DNA of 64,000 nucleotides from assembly GCA_905233895.1 (NCBI GenBank), contig CAJOFL010000016.1:1-64000 (forward strand), read 5' to 3'. Source of the DNA: an uncultured Bacteroidales bacterium (GTDB lineage: Bacteria; Bacteroidota; Bacteroidia; Bacteroidales; P3). The translations under genes were made by a program, and so were the position numbers. Each line of letters begins with the position of its first letter. The first letter of the stretch is position 1. Below, piece by piece: positions 22,386 through 51,052 of this stretch. The notes beneath the pieces are model-generated. The model worked only from the letters and a program-made list of their open reading frames with translations, was not told where the DNA came from and searched no databases.

Positions 22386-22458
<73 letters not shown>

Positions 22459-22486
22459 CAAGAGAAGCTCCAAGCTAGAGTGAAAT

Positions 22487-22569
22487 GCTCTGGTGGTGGA
22501 ATGGTAGACACGAGGGACTTAAAATCCCTTGCCCGCAAGGGCGTGTGGGTTCAAGTCCCACCCGGAGTA
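22487..22569 (+). tRNA. tRNA-Leu (TAA)
   Basis: 83 nt with a long variable arm (TGCCCGCAAGGGCGT), anticodon loop ACTTAAAAT giving TAA, T-loop GGTTCAAGTCC, and acceptor GCTCTGG/CCGGAGT. Confidence 0.92.
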
Positions 22570-22582
22570 CAAAGAGAGAAAT

Positions 22583-22655
<73 letters not shown>

Positions 22656-22769
22656 CCAAAAAAAGAGATCATTGATATTATGAGGGCAATCCTACAAGTC
22701 CATGTCAAATGTCTCCCGATGGTATGAGGAGGCCGAAAGTAGAATTGCAGAGGAAACCAAAAGAAACAT

Positions 22770-22842
22770 GTCTCGGTAGCTCAGCTGGTAGAGCAATTGA
22801 CTCTTAATCAATGGGTCCAGGGTTCGAATCCCTGCCGGGACA
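22770..22842 (+). tRNA. tRNA-Lys (CTT)
   Basis: 73 nt; D-arm GCTCAGCTGGTAGAGC, anticodon stem ATTGA/TCAAT with loop CTCTTAA (anticodon CTT), T-arm GGTTCGAATCC, acceptor GTCTCGG/CCGGGAC. The 114 bp before it hold nothing recognisable. Confidence 0.93.
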
Positions 22843-22848
22843 CTTTCA

Positions 22849-22922
22849 CGGGGTGTAGCGCAGTTGGCTAGCGCGCCACGTTCGGGACGTGGAGGCCGGA
22901 AGTTCGAGTCTTCTCACCCCGA
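22849..22922 (+). tRNA. tRNA-Pro (CGG)
   Basis: 74 nt; acceptor CGGGGTG/CACCCCG, anticodon stem CCACG/CGTGG with loop TTCGGGA (CGG), T-loop GTTCGAGTC. Confidence 0.93.
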
Positions 22923-22944
22923 CAAGAGACACTCCACGGAAACC

Positions 22945-23017
<73 letters not shown>

Positions 23018-36055: not shown

Positions 36056-37162
36056 TCAGAGTTTGACAATCTTTTTCACGTTACCGTCCACGGAGAGCAT
36101 ATAGATGCCGGCGGGGAGGCTGGCGATGCTAAATGTATTGTTACCAGCGTGGAGGGTAAGTGTGGCCACGGTGCTTCCGTTGATGTCCATCAGGCGGGCT
36201 TCGCTGGCACTGGCGACGCTGATATTCAGGCGGTCAGCGGTGGGGTTGGGCCAGAAGGAGACCTCGGCCTCGTCGGCTTCGTTGATGGCGTTGGTGTTCT
36301 GGTTGATTACTGCCACGCCGTCAAGGTCGAAGCCTGAACTGTAGCTGTTGGTGGGCCAGGGGTCGTTCACCATGTGGCCGAAGGCATCGTAGGTGGCATA
36401 CAACGGGTTGATGCTGCCGACAACGTCGACGACACGCACGTGGGTGATGTTGTTGATATCGATACCGGTGCTGTCGCGGAGTTCCTCAAGGTCGAACGGG
36501 GTGCCGTAGCCCATCTTGTATTTTCCGGCGAGGTTGTTGATGAAGGTGGGGTCGACGCTGCTGGTGACCTGGCGAACTGTCTGTGTGAGGCTGGTGGCGG
36601 GGAAGCGGACGAAGCGCACACCGTCGGAACTTACCTCTACGAAGGCCAGTTCGAGGAAGTAGTCGTTGAACGAGTTCTCGAACACTGCGAAGTCGGGGCC
36701 TTCACCGTTCATGATGGGAAGGTCGAAAGTGACAGTGGCCGAGCCGCCGTCGCCGAGGGCAACAACGGAGAGGTTATCGTTCATCGTGCAGGGGCCAATG
36801 GCGTCCTGGGCGGAATGGTAGGAGACGAGGGGAGAGCCTTCGACACTGATGTTTTCAGGTCCGAGCTCGACAGTGCAGGCGGTAGCCCAGCCCTTGATGG
36901 CGGTGGAGTTGGCGGGGATGGCGGTGCAGCCTTCAGTACCCACGATGCCGCAGAAGGGGCCTGCGCCGAGAGGTTGGCTGGCGGCGTGGATGGTCATGGG
37001 GTAGACGTAGGTGTACCACCAATAGTTGTAGGTGTTATCGTAGGTGCTGTCGACGATGACGCCTGCGGCGGGGTCGGCCCATTTCTCAAAGTCGCCGTCG
37101 CTTAAGGTCTGGCCAAGGCCCATGTCCATGATGCCATTGTTGGTGCTGCCCCACGACGGCGA
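36056..37162 (-). CDS. C-terminal part of the B12-riboswitch-controlled T9SS surface protein (after frameshift)
   Basis: Continues the product of 37086-38294 in the next frame: WGSTNNGIMDMGLGQTLSDG picks up exactly where the upstream fragment loses its frame. It then carries a surface domain with GSATVTFDLPIMNGEGPDFA, VFENSFNDYFLELAFVEVSS and DGVRFVRFPA. The same domain has ITHVRVVDVVG and a PWPTNSYSSGFDLDGVAVIN end. This domain is widespread in secreted 'cell surface' proteins. The C-terminus is a type A sorting domain (VSFWPNPTADRLNI … SLPAGIYMLSVDG … KKIVKL). Exact N-terminal boundary is arbitrary because no start codon of its own is expected. With one base removed near 37160 the whole gene would encode 745 residues. 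Confidence 0.75.
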   Translation of the reverse strand, partial: SPSWGSTNNGIMDMGLGQTLSDGDFEKWADPAAGVIVDSTYDNTYNYWWYTYVYPMTIHAASQPLGAGPFCGIVGTEGCTAIPANSTAIKGWATACTVELGPENISVEGSPLVSYHSAQDAIGPCTMNDNLSVVALGDGGSATVTFDLPIMNGEGPDFAVFENSFNDYFLELAFVEVSSDGVRFVRFPATSLTQTVRQVTSSVDPTFINNLAGKYKMGYGTPFDLEELRDSTGIDINNITHVRVVDVVGSINPLYATYDAFGHMVNDPWPTNSYSSGFDLDGVAVINQNTNAINEADEAEVSFWPNPTADRLNISVASASEARLMDINGSTVATLTLHAGNNTFSIASLPAGIYMLSVDGNVKKIVKL

Positions 37163-37760
37163 GGCTGACGGTGCCGTCATTGAAGAGGATGTCGTTGAGC
37201 ATGCCAGTGCCGGTGTAGCTGAAGCGTGGGTCGGCGGCTGCGATGGCATCCATCATGTCGGCGACGGTGGCACTGTTGTTCCAGCGGAAGCCCCAAGCCA
37301 GTGCGGTGTCGGCCCAGTTGACTGCAAGTACGGCTTCGTTCGAGCCTTCGCCAATCCAGTATTCAATCAGGTTAAAGTCGATGGTGGCCTCGACGAGGTT
37401 GGTGTCGGGATTGGTAGAGGGCACACTGACGGGGTGGATGGTCATGGGATAGACGTAGGTGTACCACCAATAGTTGTAGGTGTTATCGTAGGTGCTGTCA
37501 ACAATGACGCCTGCGGCGGGGTCGGCCCATTTCTCAAAGTCGCCGTCGCTTAAGGTCTGGCCAAGGCCCATGTCCATGATGCCATTGTTGGTGCTGCCCC
37601 ACTTGAAGAGGATGTCGTTGAGCATGCCAGTGCCGGTGTAGCTGAAGCGCGGGTCAGCGGCGGCGATACCATCCATCATGTCGGCGACGGTGGCGGTGCC
37701 ATTCCAGCGGTAGCCCCATGCGAGGGCGGTGTCGGCCCAGTTGACGGCGAGGACGGCCTC
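37003..37760 (-). repeat. Tandem in-gene duplication (two copies, about 420-450 bp)
   Basis: 37003-37162 matches 37451-37603 almost perfectly (I count two differences). Beyond it 37182-37320 matches 37605-37745 less well. The two halves are offset by 448 and 423 bases; the 25-base difference is an indel at 37157-37181. Each copy encodes one WVG(T/E)GSNEAVLAVNWADTAL domain. Confidence 0.85.
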
Positions 37761-38294
37761 GTTAGAGCCGGTGCCGACCCAGTAGACGATGTCGCTGAAG
37801 GCGATGGTGGCCTCGACGGGAGTGGAGCCGGCGTTTGGGTCGGTGGCAGCGGTGGCGGTGGTGAGGGTGAAGTTGCAACTGCTGCTGATTTCCATCAAAT
37901 CGTCGTTGGTCATGGCCTGGCTGCCGTAGGCGCCGGCATAACCACCATTGATGGTGTAGCACCAGTAGCTTAGCGAGGAGCCGGAGACGAGTGTGCCGTC
38001 GTTGTAGCCGATGCTGGTCACGAAGCCGGAGCTGATGGCGTAGGCCACGCGAGAGTCATAAGTGGCGATTGTGTCGAGCATGTTGGCGGCTGTTGCCGAG
38101 CCGTTCCAGCGAACACCCCATGCCAGGGCGAAGTTATTGCCGCTGGGATTGTCATCCCATCCGATGACCACGACAGCCTGGTTGCTGCCAGTACCCACCC
38201 AGTACTGCACACTGGATGCAGGGAATGTGATTGTGGCCATGGCACCGAAAGAGAGCACCAAGCCTAATGCTAACGTAAGTACTTTTTTTACCAT
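37086..38294 (-). CDS. N-terminal part of a B12-riboswitch-controlled T9SS surface protein, frameshifted
   Basis: Start at ATG 38294 gives a signal peptide (MVKKVLTLALGLVLSFGAMA). An upstream ATG at 38333 would add 13 residues before it. Three copies of one domain follow, each opening YW(V/I)GxGSNxAVxVxxWxD and A(L)AWGxRWNxxATxAxMxDxI. The third loses frame at about 37160: after NDGTVSLAV the codons read VGQHQQWHHG, whereas removing one G gives AVWGSTNNG in the C-terminal frame. Copy 2 has a 24-base in-frame deletion at the same point. A cobalamin riboswitch lies upstream, so B12 should repress expression. The role is inferred to be capture or use of a corrinoid at the surface; an adhesin role is the alternative. 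Confidence 0.75.
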   Translation of the reverse strand: MVKKVLTLALGLVLSFGAMATITFPASSVQYWVGTGSNQAVVVIGWDDNPSGNNFALAWGVRWNGSATAANMLDTIATYDSRVAYAISSGFVTSIGYNDGTLVSGSSLSYWCYTINGGYAGAYGSQAMTNDDLMEISSSCNFTLTTATAATDPNAGSTPVEATIAFSDIVYWVGTGSNEAVLAVNWADTALAWGYRWNGTATVADMMDGIAAADPRFSYTGTGMLNDILFKWGSTNNGIMDMGLGQTLSDGDFEKWADPAAGVIVDSTYDNTYNYWWYTYVYPMTIHPVSVPSTNPDTNLVEATIDFNLIEYWIGEGSNEAVLAVNWADTALAWGFRWNNSATVADMMDAIAAADPRFSYTGTGMLNDILFNDGTVSLAVVGQHQQWHHGHGPWPDLKRRRL

Positions 38295-38428
38295 ATTGAT
38301 ATTGTTTTTGTTAGTTAATACTTTCAATGTCAATATCGGTAACGGAAAATTTCGGGGGAAAAGACCTGCAAGTGGCGCAAACCTTCTGTCACCGGATGCT
38401 TTTTCCTCGAAAGCGGTACCGATTAATC

Positions 38429-38602
38429 TAGTTTGGCAGGTCTTCTGGCTTGCTCTTTCAGGCCCTGTCTTCCCATACGGCTATGGCGTCGTACAGTGAC
38501 ATAAATGATTGGGCTTCAATTCGTGAGCTTACAGCAGCGGGACTGCGCCGGACTCTCACCGGCTTCCCTCTTGGCGCCCTCATCGGGCGACCAAACTGGG
38601 TG
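38429..38602 (-). promoter_or_regulatory. Cobalamin (AdoCbl-type) riboswitch
   Basis: Minus strand, in order: P1 arm AGTTTGG, GCCGGTGAGAGTCCGGC, the core GCGCAGTCCCGCTGCTGT, and the B12 box AGCCAGAAGACCTGCC near the 3' end. The closing P1 arm is CCAAACT. These are all canonical. The 3' end is about 135 bases before the T9SS gene's ATG at 38294. Binding of adenosylcobalamin to this class usually lowers expression. It is transcribed from its own promoter at 38603-38634. Confidence 0.96.
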
Positions 38603-38634
38603 CAAAAGTACAAATAAAAAACGAAGTGGCAAAA
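38603..38634 (-). promoter_or_regulatory. Promoter of the cobalamin riboswitch transcript
   Basis: Minus strand: TTTTG (38634-38630), 19-bp spacer, TACTTTTG (38610-38603). It abuts the last codon of the upstream T9SS gene (stop at 38635). Confidence 0.8.
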
Positions 38635-41939: not shown

Positions 41940-42960
41940 TTATTTTCTCAGCACTTCAATAATGCCGTTTTGTTTCACAATACCGTAGGGGCCACGGGCC
42001 GAAAAGCGGAAGTAGTAGGTGCCGTCGGGGCTGTTGGTGGCGTTGGGATCCCAGAAGTCGCTATCTTCGTGGATGTCGCGCACGTGGTAGACTTCGACAC
42101 CCCACTGGTTGAAGATCCAGAGTTCATTGGTTGGGAAGTTTCCAAACTCGACAAGGTTCACCACTTTCCAGATGTCGTTGTTGCCGTCGCCGTTGGGAGT
42201 GACGAGGTTGGGGAACTGGAGGAAGTCGTTGGTGATTGTGACAGTATGCGTGGTGGTGTCGGTACAGACGTGGTGGATGGTTGTATCGGTGGCGGTCTGG
42301 AACCAGTACGCAATGAGTTGTACGTCATAATCGCCTTCCATGTTGTCGCCGTCTTGGCCCCAGTGGTAGAAGGGATTGACTTCGGAGGTCGTGTCGTAGT
42401 CTAAGGAGCCAGCCTGCGGCGGTATGCGCCAGAGGTAGGTGAGCGAGTCGAATGGCGAGGAGGTGTTATGGAAAGTAACCTCGGGATTGTCGAGAGCCGG
42501 TACAGGCGGGTTCCAGTCAAACTCGGCATTGGGTGTGCGGAAGATATAGACCGGCTGGCTTATGGTGTCGATACAGGTAACTCCGTCGATGGCCGAAGTG
42601 ACGGCTACGCTTAGCAGTGTCGTGGGTGCAATGAGCATTGAGTCGAATTCGATGCTCCAGTTTTTGTTGTAGGAGGTGAGTACGGTATCGTAGACAGAAG
42701 CTGTCCATGTCCATGCGGTGGCACCGCGAGTTGAGTCACTAAGGTAGAGGGTGTCTGGTGCACAGCCGAAGACAATGGTGTCGAACGGGAGCCAGGTGCT
42801 TCCGTCGAAGCTGTAGATTGGCTCGAGGCGGAAGGTGGTGTCGCGCGGGATGAGTACCACATGCACCATGCTGTCGCAGCCGAAAACGGAGAGGTGAGGG
42901 ATGCAGAAAGGGTTATGAACTGTGTGTCCTGGCGCGAAGCTAGCAATAATGGAACACTTA
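41940..42960 (-). CDS. C-terminal part of the giant T9SS type B protein (after frameshift)
   Basis: Carries the missing end of the protein encoded at 42611-51052: VFGCDSMVHVVLIPRDTTFR, a PKD-like region (NAEFDWNPPVPALDNPEVTF), and the type B sorting domain. That domain has FPNLVTPNGDGNNDIWKVVN … LWIFNQWGVEVYHVRD … DGTYYFRFSARG, ending IIEVLRK. It is closely similar to the C-terminus of the gene at 38635-41928. The open frame runs to 43109 but is not protein-like upstream of about 42960, and no signal peptide is present. It is therefore read as the second piece of one gene of about 3037 residues. Confidence 0.78.
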
Positions 42961-45900
42961 GTGTGTCGGCAACGTCGTAGGTGGGATTGACAGTGAGGGT
43001 TAGAGTTAGGGTGCTGTCGGCACCATGTGATGTGGCAAGCACGGTGTCGAGAGTGGCGGCTTGGGTGAAGGTCAGTCCTTCCCAGGTTAGCGGCAACAGG
43101 TCGTCGCATACGGTGCTGTCAAGCAGGGTCTGCCGATTCCAGTAGACTAAGAGGGAATAGCCGATGGTGCTGTCGCAACCCACCGCGTTGGGAATGACGG
43201 CTGCGGTGTCTAGAGTCCGTATTTCAGAGTTCAAGGGTATAAGATGCTCGGCAGTAAGGGTGAGTCCGTTCCAGTTCCAAGGCAGTTGGTTCTGTACGAG
43301 GGTGTCGCCGTCGGTGGAGGTACTGTTGAGTAGCAGGTGCAGTTGCATGGTGACCACCGAGTCGGCCCCTTGAGAGCTGATAAGGGTGGCTTGTTGCGTT
43401 ATGAGTTGGTTGGCAGCTGGGTTGGAGGTGTTGAATGTCACCCCGTTCCATACAAGCGGTAGCATGCCTTCGCAAACTGTGCTGTCGACCAAGGTGTCGC
43501 TATTGAGGTAGACGGTCAGAGCGAAGACTATGGTACTGTCACAGCCCGCGGCATTGGTGGTGTGGTATACGCAACCGGAGGTGTCGCCGGTGAAACTGAG
43601 TCCGTTCCACGGATAGGGTAATTGGTTCTCGACGATGTAGTGGTGTATGGCGGTGTCGGTGGAATGGCGGAGTGTGAGGCCAAGTGTTACGGTACTATCG
43701 CACAATACGGAGTTTTGCAACAGCCGCTGCATGGTGGTGTCGACGGTCGAAGTGACACCGTACCAGGTAAACTGGTCGCACTCGTTGGCCAAGGTGTCGG
43801 TGTGCGATGTGGGTCTCACGTCGAGCAGCAAGGTGTGAATACTGTCGCAGAAGCCCGAGGCGTCGAGGTGGACGTTGATGTGAGTTCCTTGGTCGGTGTA
43901 AGCGCTGTCGAAGAAGGTATAGCTCTGGTTGTCGCATATCGAGGCGCTGACGGTGTCGATAGTGGTGCCGTTGCCGGTATCGCTGACGGAGAGCCAGAGA
44001 TGGTAACTGCTGTCGCAGCCGAAAATACTCTGCACATCGTAGTCATAGCGGGCGCTTTCGGTGCCGGGGCCGAACACGGTGTCGGCATAGCTGAAGGGCA
44101 GCATGGGCGAGCAGATGCGCAGGGTGTCCATGTGGCGGTAGATTGGGTTGATATGCAGGTTATGGCTTGCCACTGGCGAGCATCCGTAGACGTCGGTGGT
44201 TACCAGAGTGTAGAGGTTTTCGCCAACGGTGTAGTTGTCGGGAGAGAGGGGCAGTATCCATTCGCCGCCCACTGACTGCCATTCGCCGCTTGAGGCTGGC
44301 ACGACATCGTGCAGGTGCAAGGTATCGAGTATGCCGTAGCATAGTGTGTCGGGGCCAGTGATGGAGGCGTGTGTGGGGAAGTCAATTACAAGTGGCCAGA
44401 GGAGGGTGTCCTTGCAGGCGTCGCCAGCAATACCGCTCACAAGCATGACGGTGTAGGTACCGGGTTGAGTATAGACCGTCGAGGCGTGGTACGTGGTGGC
44501 GGTCTGGCCGTTGCCGAAATTCCAGAAGGCGCTTTCGCACTCCTCGCCGGGAATTGGGGTGACGCCATCGGCACTTACGGTACTGGTGTTGGTGAAATTG
44601 ACGTGGAACTGGCAGCCGCTTATGGTCATTGATGTGTCGGCTGCTGCCATGGGGAAGCGGGTGCCACCATAGGCGCTGAGGGTGAAACTGCAGTTGGCGT
44701 TGTCCAACTTGGTGAGGTCGCAGTAGAAGGTTATGTCCTCGGCACCGCGGGTGATGCTTTGCGCTGTGGAGATGGTGGCGTTCGACTGGCTAGTGTACCA
44801 GCGGTAGTTGAAGCCAGATGGGGCGGTGAAGGTGTTACTCTCGATAGCGCCGCAGGCGGTTGTTGCAAATGCTTTGCGCATACATTCGAGGGTGAAGTAG
44901 GCGTAGCCGTAGTGAGAACCTTCGTTACAATCGAAGGTGGTCAGTCGGATGTAGACCTGCTGGTCGGCGTAGGCGGAGAGGTCGATGCCGACAGCAGTCC
45001 AGTCTTTCCACAGCACACTGTTGGGAGCCACGTTCCAACCCAGCGATGCGTCGGCTATGAAGTCGGCCGAGGTGCAGTTGGGGTCGATGGCGTTGAACGA
45101 GGAATCGAGCACTTCGATACGGAACCGAGGCTGGTCCTCGACGGCGTGTAACGGGTCTTGCAGCACTGCTGCATAGCGCAGGAGGATGAGTTGGAAGTCG
45201 TTGGTGTCGACCGTTAGACTGTAGATAACGCCTTCGGCCTCGGGTGCGTAGCTGTTGGTTCCCCAGTTGCCCAAACGGAGGCTGGTGGTCTGTCCTTCAG
45301 GCACGGCGCGCAGCAGGCCGCCAGTGCGCGGGTCGCGGTAGGCGGTGTCGTAGCATACTGTGTGGCGGCTCTCTTCGCTGGCGATGCCATAATCAATGGC
45401 ACCGGCCACGGCATAGGGGTTGTTGTAGGTTCCGCTGAAGAAGGTGGCCTGGGGAGAATAGAGGTCGGTTGGGTTGATGCAGCCGCCGCCTTCCGACGTT
45501 GCCACAATGGTGGCGCTGTCGATATAGGCCGAAGTGCAGTAGGTTCCGGTGTCGCTGCAGTCGGCACTGAATCGGATGGTATAGGGGTTCAGCGGGTTGA
45601 GTCCGCTGACAACGGTGGGCGAAGAGGTGGGATGCAGCGTCTGCACCACCGTGCCGCCAGATTCGATGTTGATAGTTATTGAGGGAGTTCCCGCTTGATG
45701 CCATTCGACAGTGAACTCAGTGGGGTTCACATTGCTCAAGCGCATGTCGCTGGCAGCGCAGGGGGTCATATGCAGGTCGTCGACGTAGATGCTGCGGCCC
45801 GCCGCCGAGGTGGTACTGCGAGCCCTCAGTCCGATGTAGTGTGCGTCGAGAGGCGCGCCTTCGAGAATCACGATATGACGCTGCCACACTCCTGAATGCC

Positions 45901-48900
45901 GGTTGGTGAGGGTGCGTATGGTGTGGAATGATGAAAGGTCAACGGGGTTGGTCATAGCTCCAACCTCGATATAATCACTGGGGTCGGTGGCATAGGTCCA
46001 GACAGTCAGGGCCACGGTATTGAGGGTGTCGGTTGCTATGTCGCCTGTGACCACATAGGACTGCGAGGCGATGGGCATGGCCAGGCTGTGACTGCCGCTG
46101 GCAGAGTAGGTGTTGACTGTTTGTATCCCGCTGTTATGGCGCGTCCACGAGGGGGGCAGGTTGCCGAGTGTGACATCCTCGAAGTCGATGCACGACGGAA
46201 CATCGAGCGGTGTGCCGAGAGTGGTGACTTCCTGTATCGGACGGCAGGTGCCGTTGGCGGTACTGTCGCAGCGGAAGTAGAAATCGTATTTCGTGTCGCC
46301 GGGCAGTGTGAGTGTGGTGGGCACGGTGTCGATGTAGGTGATGGTGTAGTCGCTGTAGCCCTGCCGGTTGTAGATGGCGTAGAAACCGCCTATGCCTGAG
46401 GGATTGTCGATTTGTACGGTATTCCAGCGTACCAGTTTGGCAGTGGCGCCAGTGGCGTAGCAACTGTCTATGCAGAAGTCAGCTATGTAGCTGTAGTCGT
46501 AGCAATATGACGGGCAGTAGGCCGGATTATAGCGGAAAGCCACCCAGCGGCCATTGCCGGTGTAGTTGCCAAGGTTGAGTTGATAATCAATCCAACTGGT
46601 GTCGTTAGACTGGTAGTAGACAGTCTCGACGGGAGTGAAGGTGGTGGTGTCGAAGGCATCGGTCATCACGCCCACTTCGAACATCTGTGTGTCTGTGGCC
46701 GACGAGGCCAGTGAGAATTTTATGTTGAGTTTGTAGAGTGAATCCACTACCATCTCAGGCAACACGATTACCTGATTGTGGCTTGAACTGCGCGGACCAT
46801 AGAACATAGTGCAGCTCTTTCCCTTCATGTTGGTGTAACTGTAGGTGTTGTAGTTCCTGAAATGGGAGAAATATGTTTCACTGGTCCAGCACCAGGGGAG
46901 GTTGTTGGTGTAGCTCAACTGATACGAGGTGTTTTCGTTGCGGCAGGCGTTGCCCAGCGAGTCGTCCACCTGTTGGATGTAGACATAGCCCGGATTCCAG
47001 TCTTGAGAGAGGTCGAAGAGATAGTAGGTGCTGTCAACGAATATGATACTGTCGAATCCGTAATCGTGCCAGGCATGCACATAATAGTTGCCATGGCTGT
47101 TGATGAATTCCAGTTTGCCTGCCGCCGGACGGCGCACGGTCATCGGCGAGTAGGGGTGGATAAACAGCCGGTATACGTCGAATTCGTTGCTGTTGTCGCG
47201 TATGGCTATGCGCTGGCCAGCATGTCCGCTGAGGTCGACTTGCGGGTAGAAGTAGCTGCTGCCATACGGGGCGCTCCAGAGGCTGAGGAACGACGAGGTG
47301 TCACTTTCGTTGGTGAGCACTCCAATCTCGAGGTGGTAGTTGACGTTGCTCGAGCTGTTGCGCCACATATAGCCTTCGAGGGTGGCTACTGTCGCGTTGG
47401 TGTCGAGTTTCGGTAGCAGCAGGAATGACTGGGTGAAGTGGTTGTAGTACCATACGCCGCTTGAGGCGTCGTAGCGGTAGGCGGTAGGCGAGGGGCTTAT
47501 GAACTCCCAGGCGTTGGCGTCTTCAAGCGGTGTTCCGTTCTGGAAGTCGATGCAGTAAGGTACAGTCAGATAGTTGTCGGTATGCAGGACTTTGTGTGGA
47601 CGGCAGGTCTCGTCGTCGTAGGCGCACTGCCAAGAAAAGTCGTATTCCCAGCCGGGCATCAGTCCGTTGACGGTATATGACGGAACGTTGATGAGGAACA
47701 TGCGCTCGCTGCCGGTGGTGTCGGCCACGAAGAGGTAGTAGAGTGGCGAGGGATTGTCGGTGGTGCATATGGCGGTATTGCCATCGATGGTGATGTCAAT
47801 ATGCTGGCAGAGGCTGACGCCGATATGGTCAAGCATTATGGTGTCGCCCGCGGTGTTGACGCGCAAACCCACAAGCAGTGTGTCGGAAGGCATATCGGGC
47901 AGGCGGAGGGTATATCGCACGGTGTCGCCGGCAGTTACAGTGACGGTGTCGAAGGGGAGGAATGTGTTGAAGAGGGTATCGGCGTAGCCGAGTTCCATCG
48001 AGCCGTGGCCCACGGCCAGGAAACTGAGGGTGCGGCCGCTGATATTGCCGTATTGCGGCATACAGAGGTTGGCGCCGACGGAGCCGTAGAGGTGGAGGTA
48101 GCCGGTGTCGATGGAATGGCTTAGCGGGTTGGTGGATGTCCATCCGTAGGGCAGTTCGTAGGAGAGTTCATGGTTGAAGGAATGGCAGTAACTGACTCCC
48201 ATGGCGGCACCGCAAGAGGTGACGAAGTAGGTGGCGTAGGAGGGGCAGACAGAGGTGTCGGGCGGGATGAGAGGACGCACGTAGACCTTGTATTCGGTGC
48301 AGTGGGAGAGGCCTGTGAAGCGGGCGGTATCTGAAGCGCCTATGGTGTCGATGCCGACAAGGAGGTCAATCTCGTTGCGCAGGGTAACCTCGAATACGGT
48401 GTCTGTGGCTGTGTAAGGGGTGACCACAATGGAGGCGCTGCTGCTGTCGACCATGACCACTGAGGCGTTGAGGTAAGCGGCATGGGTAATCTGCACCTCG
48501 TCGATATAGACAGAGAAGTTGAGGTATTCGTTGTTGTGGTAGTAAGCCATGTAGATGCGGCCGTCGAAGGTGCTGTCGCCTGCAGGGAGCGGTACCACGT
48601 AGTGCTGGCGGATGCCATAGCCGGCCAGCTGGATGGTGTCGAAAATGCGCAGTTCGGGATCGCCATATGAGGTCTTGAGGTAGAAGTTGCCGAGCAGGAT
48701 TTCGCCCGATGGGGCCATGTTGGTGGCGTAGAAGGAGAGGACACTTCCGCTGTCGAGCGGCACGTCGGGTATTACCGCGGCCGAGTAGTAGTTGTTGGAA
48801 AAACCGTAGGATGCCATGCGGAGAGCCATGCCGGCGCCCCAGTAATATGGGTGCTCCACTGTGTTGGGGCTATTGTCGTAGTTGTAGTAGCGAGTCCAGT

Positions 48901-51052
48901 GGCCGTAACCCCAGTCATCCCAGTAGTAGATGTCTGAGAAGTCGTGGCAGAAAGGCTGCGGGTTGTCGGCATAGGCGGTGTTGGTACGGATGCGCGAGTC
49001 GGAACAGCCGCTGCCGCTGCAGGGGCGGCTGACGATGAAATCGTAGCCGTAGTTGCTCATCTGGAGGCCGTCGATGGTGAGTCGGCGCTGGCCCACGAAG
49101 GTGCGCACGGTTCCGGTGCCCTGCTCGAAGCCTTGGGGGCCGTATTCAACCAAGATGGTGTCGTTCGGGCCGTTGGAGGCCACGCCGAGCACGATGGAAG
49201 TTCCGCGACGGTGGACTACACGCAGGCTGTCGACCAGACAGTCGCCTATCTCCATACGGTGGATGTAATAGTAGAGGTCGCCGTGGCGCAGAGCTACGAA
49301 AGTGGCGGTGGAGGTGTCGGGAATGGTGGCAAAGAGGTAGCGGGTCTGGAAGTAGTCGGTGTAGCAGGAGGCGAGGGGGGTGAAGGAGGCGGTGTCGTTG
49401 CGGCTGCGCATGAGTCCGAGGGTGACGTTGGCGTAGTAGCCGTCGAGACGGACGGCGACCTGCTTGCCGGCCAGACCGTTGAATTCGGGGCTTATCACGT
49501 AGCAGGGGCGCTGGTTGCCCAAGGTGTTGACGTCGATGTGATCGCCGCTTATCGAGGCGGTTGCGTTGACCAGGGTGAGCGAGTTGAGCATTGCGTTGTT
49601 GCTGTACCATCCGATGCACCAGTGGTCGACGGTGATGGCGCTGTCGGCGGTGACGGCATGTAGGGTGACCGAGGTGCCGCACTGGGTAGAGAGGATGACG
49701 GTGTAGTTGGTCGAAGCGTTGAGTCCTGTGAGGGTGATGGGCGAGGTGGCGGAGGTGATGGTCTGGATATCGCCGTTGTTTCCGGCCGAGCGAAGGTGGA
49801 GGGTGACGTCGGCGGCGCCGTAGGTTGTCCAGGACACGGTCATGGCGTCGCTCTCGACGTCGGAGATTGCGGCCGTGGTGATGCCGCAGGCGTTGATGCC
49901 GATGTCGTCGATATAGATACGGCGGTTGGGTCCGCCCTGCATCGACTGGAGCATGTAGAAGGCGAGGCTGCGTCCGGTGGCTATGGTGCGGCTGGGCAGG
50001 GCGACATTCTGCCATGAGGCGTCGACATAGACGGTGTCGGTCGGGATGAAGTCGTAGAGGGTGGTGTAACTGCTGTCAAGGTTGCAGGTGCCGACCACAA
50101 GGCAGGTGCTGTTGTGCGAGGCTCGGGCATTGAATTGGATGAATCCCGACGCTCCTAGGTCGAGTCTTGGGCCGAGGGCAAGTCCAAAGTGGCCGCCCGT
50201 GTAGTTGTTGCCGCAACTCAGCATGAGGCTCTGGCTGCCGGAGGTGGAGTAGTTGTTCACCACTCGCGGCTGGGTATACTCGTCGTCGAAGTTGCTCAGC
50301 ACCGTCCAGCATATGGGCACGGTGTCGAGGGGCATATCCTCGAAATTCTCCGTCCAAGGCATGTGTACCGTGTCGCAGGTGGTGCGGAACATGGCGACGG
50401 CGCGGCAGCAGATGGATGTCTCGCTGCTGGCCATGACGGTGACGTTATGCTGTGAGGCGGGGTTGAGGCCGGTGAGGAGGTGAGTGGTGGAGTTGGCGGT
50501 AGTGGTGTCGCCGTCGCAGATGACGGTGAAGGGTCCTGCGGGGTTGGTGGCGTTCCAGTTGAGGGTGGCCGAGGTGGTGCCGATGCCGGTGACGCTGAGG
50601 TTGCTGACGCTGTTGGCGCAGCCTGAGCTTCCGCTCACAGTCCAAGTCAGCAGGAATCCATCGTAGGTTACCGAGTAGTCGGTGTGGAAAGTTATGGTAA
50701 GGGTGCCGGTCGAGGTGGAGTAGTTGCAGTTGCCGGTGCCGGTCAGCTGTGTGCTCGAGGTGCCGTCGTCGAGGGTCAGACGGTCGTAGCCGCTCTCCAA
50801 GGAATAATTGCCTTGCAGGGTGAGGAGGATGCCGGCATCCCAGGTGAGCACCACCGAGCCGTCGAAGTAGTTGGAATACGAGCCGTTGGTGCCGCCGTCG
50901 TCCACTATACCGTCCACCGAGCCGTCGCAGGCCGAGATGTTGACAGTGGCGCCATTGACAAACCGTGCGTAGTTCTGTGCTTCGGCACGGGCGGGCATAA
51001 GGCATGTGAGTACAAGTGCCAGAAATGCTATGAGGAGTCTGTATCGGGTCAT
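42611..51052 (-). CDS. Giant T9SS-type surface protein, N-terminal piece of a frameshifted gene
   Basis: 2813 residues from ATG 51052 with a signal peptide (MTRYRLLIAFLALVLTCLMP … AEAQ). A CUB-like domain (VNISACDGSVDGIVDDGG … CNYSTSTGTLTITFHTD) is followed by many alternating FN3-like and MAM/choice-of-anchor-J-like modules. A lectin-like module comes later (RLGNWGTNSYAPEAEGVIYS), then a PKD domain (CQFHVNFTNTSTVSADGVTP). CDSTI/CDS-type short repeats finish it (QLPYPWNGLSFTGDTSGCVY and similar). After DVADTLSVPLLLAS the frame turns into non-protein-like sequence, and the real ending lies in the next frame (41940-42960). 41940-51052 is 9113 bases, so one base is missing or two are extra. It would be among the longest proteins of such genomes, probably a SprB-like adhesin. 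Confidence 0.8.
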   Translation of the reverse strand: MTRYRLLIAFLALVLTCLMPARAEAQNYARFVNGATVNISACDGSVDGIVDDGGTNGSYSNYFDGSVVLTWDAGILLTLQGNYSLESGYDRLTLDDGTSSTQLTGTGNCNYSTSTGTLTITFHTDYSVTYDGFLLTWTVSGSSGCANSVSNLSVTGIGTTSATLNWNATNPAGPFTVICDGDTTTANSTTHLLTGLNPASQHNVTVMASSETSICCRAVAMFRTTCDTVHMPWTENFEDMPLDTVPICWTVLSNFDDEYTQPRVVNNYSTSGSQSLMLSCGNNYTGGHFGLALGPRLDLGASGFIQFNARASHNSTCLVVGTCNLDSSYTTLYDFIPTDTVYVDASWQNVALPSRTIATGRSLAFYMLQSMQGGPNRRIYIDDIGINACGITTAAISDVESDAMTVSWTTYGAADVTLHLRSAGNNGDIQTITSATSPITLTGLNASTNYTVILSTQCGTSVTLHAVTADSAITVDHWCIGWYSNNAMLNSLTLVNATASISGDHIDVNTLGNQRPCYVISPEFNGLAGKQVAVRLDGYYANVTLGLMRSRNDTASFTPLASCYTDYFQTRYLFATIPDTSTATFVALRHGDLYYYIHRMEIGDCLVDSLRVVHRRGTSIVLGVASNGPNDTILVEYGPQGFEQGTGTVRTFVGQRRLTIDGLQMSNYGYDFIVSRPCSGSGCSDSRIRTNTAYADNPQPFCHDFSDIYYWDDWGYGHWTRYYNYDNSPNTVEHPYYWGAGMALRMASYGFSNNYYSAAVIPDVPLDSGSVLSFYATNMAPSGEILLGNFYLKTSYGDPELRIFDTIQLAGYGIRQHYVVPLPAGDSTFDGRIYMAYYHNNEYLNFSVYIDEVQITHAAYLNASVVMVDSSSASIVVTPYTATDTVFEVTLRNEIDLLVGIDTIGASDTARFTGLSHCTEYKVYVRPLIPPDTSVCPSYATYFVTSCGAAMGVSYCHSFNHELSYELPYGWTSTNPLSHSIDTGYLHLYGSVGANLCMPQYGNISGRTLSFLAVGHGSMELGYADTLFNTFLPFDTVTVTAGDTVRYTLRLPDMPSDTLLVGLRVNTAGDTIMLDHIGVSLCQHIDITIDGNTAICTTDNPSPLYYLFVADTTGSERMFLINVPSYTVNGLMPGWEYDFSWQCAYDDETCRPHKVLHTDNYLTVPYCIDFQNGTPLEDANAWEFISPSPTAYRYDASSGVWYYNHFTQSFLLLPKLDTNATVATLEGYMWRNSSSNVNYHLEIGVLTNESDTSSFLSLWSAPYGSSYFYPQVDLSGHAGQRIAIRDNSNEFDVYRLFIHPYSPMTVRRPAAGKLEFINSHGNYYVHAWHDYGFDSIIFVDSTYYLFDLSQDWNPGYVYIQQVDDSLGNACRNENTSYQLSYTNNLPWCWTSETYFSHFRNYNTYSYTNMKGKSCTMFYGPRSSSHNQVIVLPEMVVDSLYKLNIKFSLASSATDTQMFEVGVMTDAFDTTTFTPVETVYYQSNDTSWIDYQLNLGNYTGNGRWVAFRYNPAYCPSYCYDYSYIADFCIDSCYATGATAKLVRWNTVQIDNPSGIGGFYAIYNRQGYSDYTITYIDTVPTTLTLPGDTKYDFYFRCDSTANGTCRPIQEVTTLGTPLDVPSCIDFEDVTLGNLPPSWTRHNSGIQTVNTYSASGSHSLAMPIASQSYVVTGDIATDTLNTVALTVWTYATDPSDYIEVGAMTNPVDLSSFHTIRTLTNRHSGVWQRHIVILEGAPLDAHYIGLRARSTTSAAGRSIYVDDLHMTPCAASDMRLSNVNPTEFTVEWHQAGTPSITINIESGGTVVQTLHPTSSPTVVSGLNPLNPYTIRFSADCSDTGTYCTSAYIDSATIVATSEGGGCINPTDLYSPQATFFSGTYNNPYAVAGAIDYGIASEESRHTVCYDTAYRDPRTGGLLRAVPEGQTTSLRLGNWGTNSYAPEAEGVIYSLTVDTNDFQLILLRYAAVLQDPLHAVEDQPRFRIEVLDSSFNAIDPNCTSADFIADASLGWNVAPNSVLWKDWTAVGIDLSAYADQQVYIRLTTFDCNEGSHYGYAYFTLECMRKAFATTACGAIESNTFTAPSGFNYRWYTSQSNATISTAQSITRGAEDITFYCDLTKLDNANCSFTLSAYGGTRFPMAAADTSMTISGCQFHVNFTNTSTVSADGVTPIPGEECESAFWNFGNGQTATTYHASTVYTQPGTYTVMLVSGIAGDACKDTLLWPLVIDFPTHASITGPDTLCYGILDTLHLHDVVPASSGEWQSVGGEWILPLSPDNYTVGENLYTLVTTDVYGCSPVASHNLHINPIYRHMDTLRICSPMLPFSYADTVFGPGTESARYDYDVQSIFGCDSSYHLWLSVSDTGNGTTIDTVSASICDNQSYTFFDSAYTDQGTHINVHLDASGFCDSIHTLLLDVRPTSHTDTLANECDQFTWYGVTSTVDTTMQRLLQNSVLCDSTVTLGLTLRHSTDTAIHHYIVENQLPYPWNGLSFTGDTSGCVYHTTNAAGCDSTIVFALTVYLNSDTLVDSTVCEGMLPLVWNGVTFNTSNPAANQLITQQATLISSQGADSVVTMQLHLLLNSTSTDGDTLVQNQLPWNWNGLTLTAEHLIPLNSEIRTLDTAAVIPNAVGCDSTIGYSLLVYWNRQTLLDSTVCDDLLPLTWEGLTFTQAATLDTVLATSHGADSTLTLTLTVNPTYDVADTLSVPLLLASRQDTQFITLSASLTSPFSAATAWCMWYSSRATPPSASSQSTASTEAPGSRSTPLSSAVHQTPSTLVTQLAVPPHGHGQLLSTIPYSPPTTKTGASNSTQCSLHPRHC

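Follow-up and report, generated by a model that had tools for sequence, protein, structure and literature searches.

Genes and regulatory features of the locus

The window analysed here, a stretch of 64,000 nucleotides (nt) from the genome of an uncultured Bacteroidales bacterium (GTDB P3; assembly GCA_905233895.1, contig CAJOFL010000016.1; genome G000), contains a cobalamin (vitamin B12) riboswitch upstream of a gene for a putative cargo protein of the type IX secretion system (T9SS), with all features of the locus on the minus strand. The riboswitch aptamer (38418-38610) matches the full length of the Rfam model RF00174 (positions 1-189 of 189) at 113 bits (gathering score 31.5; E 1.6e-27); the genome has three such matches in its 2.34 Mb. 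Its first Rfam positions overlap the downstream element of a promoter-like site (TTTG-N19-TACTTTTG, 38603-38633, identified by pattern match) of the Bacteroidota type, the consensus of which is TTTG/TAnnTTTG. The T9SS type A C-terminal sorting domain at the other end of the gene (Por_Secre_tail, 36062-36253, residues 333-395 of the downstream frame P0002) was recognized by Pfam (E 5.2e-10; PF18962, 39.9 bits versus a cut-off of 27) and by TIGR04183 (34.3 bits versus a cut-off of 23). A preliminary description of this DNA had proposed a canonical B12 riboswitch with its own promoter ahead of the gene for a T9SS cargo, and these matches bear it out.

Between the aptamer and the start codon, the leader (38295-38417) is predicted by folding to form a hairpin that pairs the start-codon region, but its z-score of -1.23 is not significant (23 of 200 shuffled sequences fold equally well). 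Pairing at the ATG was also found in many of the 48 folded leaders of relatives, judged by eye and without a control. The hairpin is a possible translational switch.

The gene starts at the ATG at 38294 with a hydrophobic, signal-peptide-like N terminus (38235-38294, read by eye; no lipoprotein signal was seen by eye in the gene) and continues with three copies of a repeat carrying the motif YWVGxGSNxAV...ALAWGYRW (37869-38222, 37395-37823 and 36980-37379), a 'cell-surface' jelly-roll domain of about 225 amino acids (aa) (36290-36964, family profile E 1.6e-120), the sorting domain, and the stop codon (36056-36058). The second repeat lacks part of the middle strand region, and the third is split near 37154 across two reading frames, P0001 (402 aa, 37086-38294) and P0002 (36056-37249), the latter holding the remainder of the gene. 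The repeats, the cell-surface domain and the T9SS tail named in the preliminary description were thus all found, but the frame break in copy 3 had been missed. In copies 2 and 3 the second (3') halves are nearly identical. The break lies where these halves start, at exactly the place where 25 nt are missing from copy 2; because of the near-identical halves and the gap at the break, either a misassembly across the repeats or a recombination lesion is possible. Some relatives have an intact frame, among them L129 (922 aa, with four repeat copies and the cell-surface domain), and the genes of some others (L110 and L118) also look interrupted. A second very long T9SS-looking gene of the window (41940-43109 and 42611-51052, minus strand) is apparently split over two overlapping frames, and frame errors may therefore be common in this assembly.

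Linkage to cobalamin riboswitches in related genomes

Within the family, 94 of 149 genomes match P0001. Rfam was run on the best-matching locus from each of the 30 highest-ranking genomes, including that of the window; all 30 carry RF00174 on the same strand, 123 to 968 nt upstream of the match to P0001. Among 39 larger regions, 21 of which overlap these 30 loci, 36 have a riboswitch upstream on the same strand as detected with the study's own nucleotide profile. In four of these (L061, L062, L075 and a single one of the two L067 genes) it lies 2.3 to 3.3 kb away. From the 252 relatives that a scan of named genomes yielded, the 80 best were taken, representing 78 loci; their records are named Bacteroidales, Bacteroidetes, Bacteroidia, a Paludibacteraceae and a Candidatus Colimorpha, and a large part of them come from ruminant forestomach, rectum or horse faeces. 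By the same nucleotide profile, all 74 assessable loci of the 78 have an upstream same-strand cobalamin riboswitch, no more than 800 nt from the 5' end of the frame in 57 and within 4 kb upstream in 17; in the other four the upstream DNA is too short, and no locus with at least 4 kb examined is without a riboswitch. Because the record sets overlap and the genomes are related, these counts are not independent trials.

In the wider order, the repeat profile A1 matches 25 of 198 genomes, and RF00174 is present at the examined locus in 21 of the 24 genomes other than the window's. When 34 sources of A1 and of A3, the family profile of the cell-surface domain, were scanned with Rfam, RF00174 was present in 26 (10 of 14 and 16 of 20). 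The preliminary description had allowed that the link to the riboswitch might be local; homologs of the protein prove instead to be generally preceded by a cobalamin riboswitch.

The number of repeats varies from 1 to 8 among relatives. Giant riboswitch-linked versions of 2239-2557 aa (L055, L056, L057, L068 and L074) separate the first repeat from the later ones by more than 1000 residues, and single repeat copies occur in proteins of 1586 to 4424 aa (L070:4998-18269, L071:5577-11327 and L072:6382-11139).

Relation of the repeat domain to transcobalamin

By profile comparison and modelled fold, the repeat is a divergent DUF4430/SLBB domain of the type that forms the β-domain of transcobalamin and intrinsic factor. 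PF14478 (DUF4430) matches 37 of 55 tandem repeat segments at E ≤0.1 (best 1e-9). Its cut-off of 23.8 bits is passed by four of five full repeat proteins (L080, L096, L113 and L063, with 44.8, 51.7, 69.1 and 62.6 bits) and narrowly missed by the fifth (L137, 22.5 bits). Over 296 genomes of the phylum the model has one match, a 124-aa open frame at a locus with no riboswitch (L161); because it is blind to most of the repeat family, it gives no picture of the family's distribution.

The AlphaFold2 model of window positions 37395-38237 (mean predicted local distance difference test score, pLDDT, 89.9) folds as a β-grasp whose helix is followed by a β-hairpin (strands 19-27 and 36-44, helix 50-60, hairpin 64-69/72-79, strands 92-96 and 113-119). 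A hairpin in this place is the mark of the transcobalamin-like clade of SLBB domains (PMC1796856). When the model was compared with the PDB by Foldseek, the first four matches were chains of transcobalamin:CD320 entries, and further matches included a small bacterial protein (3u7z), the transcobalamin β-domain with cyanocobalamin (5np4) and intrinsic factor (2pmv). The predicted structure accords in this respect with the corrinoid-binding role envisaged in the preliminary description. A glycine after strand 2 (Gly46) is nearly invariant and may correspond to one of the two conserved glycines of the SLBB superfamily. No α/α-toroid family was found in Pfam scans of the two window proteins and the five full repeat proteins. 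The idea that the repeat might be BtuK was considered; a lipoprotein-like protein that carries the repeat (L207) has no convincing relative in the PDB.

The transcobalamin-like clade has been put forward as the bacterial origin of the animal β-domain. Its SLBB proteins in Gram-positive bacteria, planctomycetes and some archaea (euryarchaea) were predicted in 2007 to be B12 scavengers (Burroughs et al., PMC1796856); transcobalamin-like proteins of fish also have a DUF4430 domain, located C-terminally (PMC4350170). The window repeats resemble the β-domain of transcobalamin and intrinsic factor in the β-grasp with hairpin, the first fold match, the passing of PF14478 by a subfamily, and the predicted export and B12 scavenging. 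Unlike transcobalamin, they are arranged in tandem on a T9SS cargo with no α/α-toroid partner seen, and the window copy falls below the Pfam cut-off. Unlike the members of the clade listed in 2007, their host belongs to the Bacteroidota, a group not named in the available part of that listing (PMC1796856).

The cell-surface domain and BtuH

The cell-surface domain is likely to be related to BtuH, as judged from its modelled fold and its place in operons; the relation is unproven in sequence, because control proteins from outside B12 loci match the family profile equally well. Its model (pLDDT 93.7) matches jelly-roll modules generally, among them carbohydrate-binding and F5/8 modules, and Foldseek gives a probability of 0.99 to both 7biz (BtuH2) and 8blw (BtuH-bearing BtuG1). 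Among the 50 matches listed, these two have the highest (7biz, 0.44) and joint second highest (8blw, 0.41) query TM-scores, with a large root-mean-square deviation. A3 matches 62 of the 198 genomes of the order, with weak matches in five. In 10 of 15 strongly matching regions (L227-L241) the domain has a btuB- and/or btuG-like gene as a neighbour; none was seen in the other five (L229, L230, L231, L237 and L240).

A3 matches BtuH-like proteins (L222, L223 and L225) at 5.8e-8, 3.1e-7 and 2.3e-6, one of which (L222) is BtuH, being matched by 7biz at 5.2e-101, and it also matches proteins outside B12 loci (L224 and L226) at 2.9e-7, 5.3e-6 and 9.3e-6. The bridge through L222 was accordingly dropped as a proof that the cell-surface domain is BtuH, since large proteins from outside B12 loci match as well. 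A search of PDB sequences with A3 gave no match to BtuH. The large proteins outside B12 loci that carry a sequence relative of the domain (L224:4364-10362 and L226:4510-6819) raise the possibility of a wider T9SS-associated jelly-roll family that includes it.

Eight contact residues of BtuH2 were compared with the domain (Gln333, Asn399, Phe401, His476, Tyr510, Trp511, Trp577 and Leu578; the numbering offset was derived from the printed chain). The position of Asn399 is asparagine in 57 of 57 rows and that of Phe401 is phenylalanine in 44 of 57, both inside a short stretch of 36 columns; in BtuH2 these two residues contact the phosphate and the lower base (PMC8941943).

Operon neighbours and known B12-capture proteins

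Neighbouring genes were named by reading their translations, and some of them were scanned with profiles. The repeat gene recurs in riboswitch-led clusters in which it follows btuB and btuG (L076 and L079, with equal spacing in L077 and L080), btuG (L090, L096, L105, L116 and L126) or btuB (L107 and L137). In other families it lies beside btuB-, btuG- and btuH-like genes in L245, L246 and L247, beside btuB and btuH in L250, and likewise among genes of this kind in L234. The BtuG of L076 passes DUF5074 (42.2 bits versus a cut-off of 27.2), whereas that of the window genome falls just short (25.1). In L076 and L137, the best match of the BtuB-like genes is TIGR01779, with a score far below its cut-off.

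In some other Bacteroidales, a gene for DUF4465, the domain of BtuJ, occupies the place of the repeat gene (L233 and L236), and in L232 and L237 DUF4465 and the cell-surface domain share one frame. The DUF4465 proteins carry a T9SS tail above the cut-off in L230, L232, L233 and L237, and below it in L236. Operons of riboswitch, capture gene, BtuH-like gene, btuB and btuG recur, which suggests a single slot that can be taken either by DUF4465 or by the transcobalamin-like repeats.

BtuG, BtuH, BtuJ and BtuK1 are surface B12-binding lipoproteins of Bacteroides thetaiotaomicron (PMC12751083, PMC8941943, PMC6143338, PMC13398666), and a hand-over from BtuH to BtuG/BtuB has been proposed there (PMC10404256). 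The cell-surface domain shares with BtuH (BT_1956, 7biz; 8blw) the jelly-roll fold (probability 0.99) and a place in riboswitch-btuB-btuG operons of other Bacteroidales. Unlike BtuH, a lipoprotein with PKD domains, it follows transcobalamin-like repeats and precedes a T9SS tail, and no PKD match was found in the window proteins. BtuG, a β-propeller lipoprotein with DUF5074, is an operon partner in relatives and belongs to the same proposed pathway, but neither P0001 nor P0002 has a propeller match (DUF5074 or YncE-type), and the BtuG-like gene of the genome is on another contig (C49). BtuJ (DUF4465, IPR027828) is similarly placed in operons of some other Bacteroidales (L233 and L236), but DUF4465 (PF14717) is unmatched by the window gene in a Pfam scan; BtuJ of B. 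thetaiotaomicron is described as a lipoprotein, whereas the DUF4465 proteins of other Bacteroidales seen here have T9SS tails. In a flavobacterial study, a TonB-dependent transporter is listed with a cobalamin riboswitch in front of it (PMC9723704). No report joining a T9SS cargo, a cobalamin riboswitch and transcobalamin-like repeats in Bacteroidota was found in the open-licence PMC literature, which does not prove that none exists.

Vitamin B12 metabolism of the host genome

The genome encodes methylmalonyl-CoA mutase and the class II ribonucleotide reductase NrdJ (on contig C24, 551 bits versus a cut-off of 400), and has btuG on contig C49 and two pieces of a btuB-like gene at the ends of contigs C2 and C49. 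Neither CbiC nor the Met_synt_B12 activation domain was found in a search of the genome. With B12-dependent enzymes, BtuG and pieces of BtuB but no CbiC found, the genome looks like that of a B12-scavenging user.

The other two riboswitches of the genome precede nrdD/nrdG and a CoA-transferase, as named from their translations. The first (L003/L034, G000:C46:15303-15488) lies before an apparent anaerobic class III ribonucleotide reductase in a genome that also has the B12-dependent class II enzyme, an apparent B12-controlled isozyme switch. The second (L002/L035, G000:C48:4662-4852) lies before a gene resembling acetyl-CoA hydrolase/CoA-transferase, and a similar pair of riboswitch and CoA-transferase gene is divergent to the interrupted riboswitch-repeat gene of L118 (L118:7137-7305, minus strand). 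B12 control of the CoA-transferase may tie B12 supply to propionate or acetate output.

Proposed function and alternative explanations

The locus probably encodes a B12-repressed, T9SS-exported corrinoid-capture protein with transcobalamin-like repeats that feeds the BtuBG importer. When cobalamin is scarce, the riboswitch leader would be in the ON state, possibly through release of the start-codon hairpin, and the protein would be made and exported by Sec and the T9SS, its type A tail leaving it held at, or released from, the cell surface. The tandem DUF4430/SLBB modules resembling the transcobalamin β-domain, and possibly also the BtuH-like jelly-roll, would bind corrinoids and pass them to the BtuG-BtuB outer-membrane importer, and the imported cobalamin would support methylmalonyl-CoA mutase and the class II ribonucleotide reductase. 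At the level of the family the case is strong. The proposal of the preliminary description, that the product may be a different class of secreted corrinoid-binding protein, gains support from the regulation, the fold and the btuB-, btuG- and btuH-like partners, but the cell-surface domain, resembling BtuH by fold and operon place, is not necessarily a new class. Nor is the idea of B12 scavenging by a transcobalamin-like domain new, since it has been predicted in other bacteria since 2007 (PMC1796856).

Several observations weigh against this interpretation. The gene is not one open frame, P0001 running out of frame within copy 3. The whole of P0001 scores 14.6 bits with PF14478, below the cut-off, with the window's own 281-aa segment among the 18 of 55 that have no match; a search of the window's own genome with this model found nothing, and at E 0.01 the repeat proteins L203, L215 and L234 from other families are unmatched. 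The best Foldseek E-value of the repeat model is only 0.0099, with some ubiquitin-like proteins interspersed among the matches, and the repeat profiles A1 and A2 have no transcobalamin match among PDB sequences, so that the link to transcobalamin rests on PF14478 and the fold comparison. For the cell-surface domain, hhalign gives profile-profile probabilities of 88% over 36 columns with BtuH, 93% over 72 columns with a control domain of large proteins outside B12 loci and 0.1% with a DUF4465 control; the six other BtuH2 contacts are not conserved or not alignable, and one outside protein also carries asparagine at the position of Asn399. No riboswitch was found in the fetched DNA of the large single-copy proteins L070, L071 and L072, at the btuB and btuG of the window genome, which lie away from the window gene, or, with RF00174, at three of the 24 order loci (G378, G519 and G621, the latter two of the same genus); the repeat copy of G378 is nonetheless a lipoprotein-like gene inside a btuB-btuG-btuH-like operon.

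An unlikely alternative is that corrinoid is bound by the BtuH-like jelly-roll alone and that the repeats, like the PKD domains of BtuH2, are stalks or spacers lifting it off the surface; BtuH2 has N-terminal PKD domains and a single C-terminal binding domain (PMC8941943). The variation in repeat number across relatives and the degeneracy of window repeats 2 and 3 would suit such a role, but in several riboswitch-linked genes (L203, L231, L215 and L196-L199) the repeat occurs without the jelly-roll in the same protein, the fold matched by the repeat is that of the β-domain that contacts B12 in transcobalamin (PMC1796856), and the link of the jelly-roll to BtuH is unspecific in sequence. It is quite improbable that the protein is under B12 control without acting on B12, for example as an adhesin or substrate binder suited to a change of niche or diet when the cell is starved of B12. 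The riboswitch before the CoA-transferase illustrates that a gene can be under B12 control without serving B12 uptake; the jelly-roll resembles carbohydrate-binding and F5/8 modules and, in sequence, a domain of proteins outside B12 loci; and some repeat copies are in very large proteins. Against this stand the recurrent operon linkage to btuB-, btuG- and btuH-like genes in several families and the repeat family's kinship with the transcobalamin β-domain.

There is an appreciable chance, short of even, that the window copy is a dead gene yielding no full-length product in this strain, in which case the family would still be that of a working capture protein. The frame break in copy 3, beside a 25-nt difference between near-identical halves, and the few relatives that also look interrupted favour this explanation, but no defect is seen in the promoter, the riboswitch, the signal-like N terminus or elsewhere in either frame. 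Short-read assembly is unreliable at near-identical repeats such as the one that holds the break, and assembly error is also suggested by the 42-51 kb gene of the window, in which the frame appears to be broken as well.

Within the interpretation as a corrinoid-capture protein, it may tentatively be proposed that these proteins form a class of T9SS-exported, multivalent 'bacterial intrinsic factors' with several transcobalamin-type β-grasp sites per chain that load BtuBG. If so, adjacent repeats, or a repeat and the jelly-roll, would clamp one corrinoid as the α- and β-domains of transcobalamin do, and the surface of B12-starved Bacteroidales would be a corrinoid sponge that loads BtuBG in competition with neighbours and host. 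Gut bacteria compete for B12, and this uncultured animal-gut lineage of Bacteroidales appears to use the T9SS rather than lipoproteins for its capture, apparently employing in repeated form the fold of the animal B12 carriers. The repeat proteins would provide a concrete family for B12 acquisition by scavenging Bacteroidales of the rumen and hindgut, and would extend the transcobalamin-like clade to the Bacteroidota.

Elsewhere in the window, six tRNA genes are clustered on the plus strand (22386-23017).

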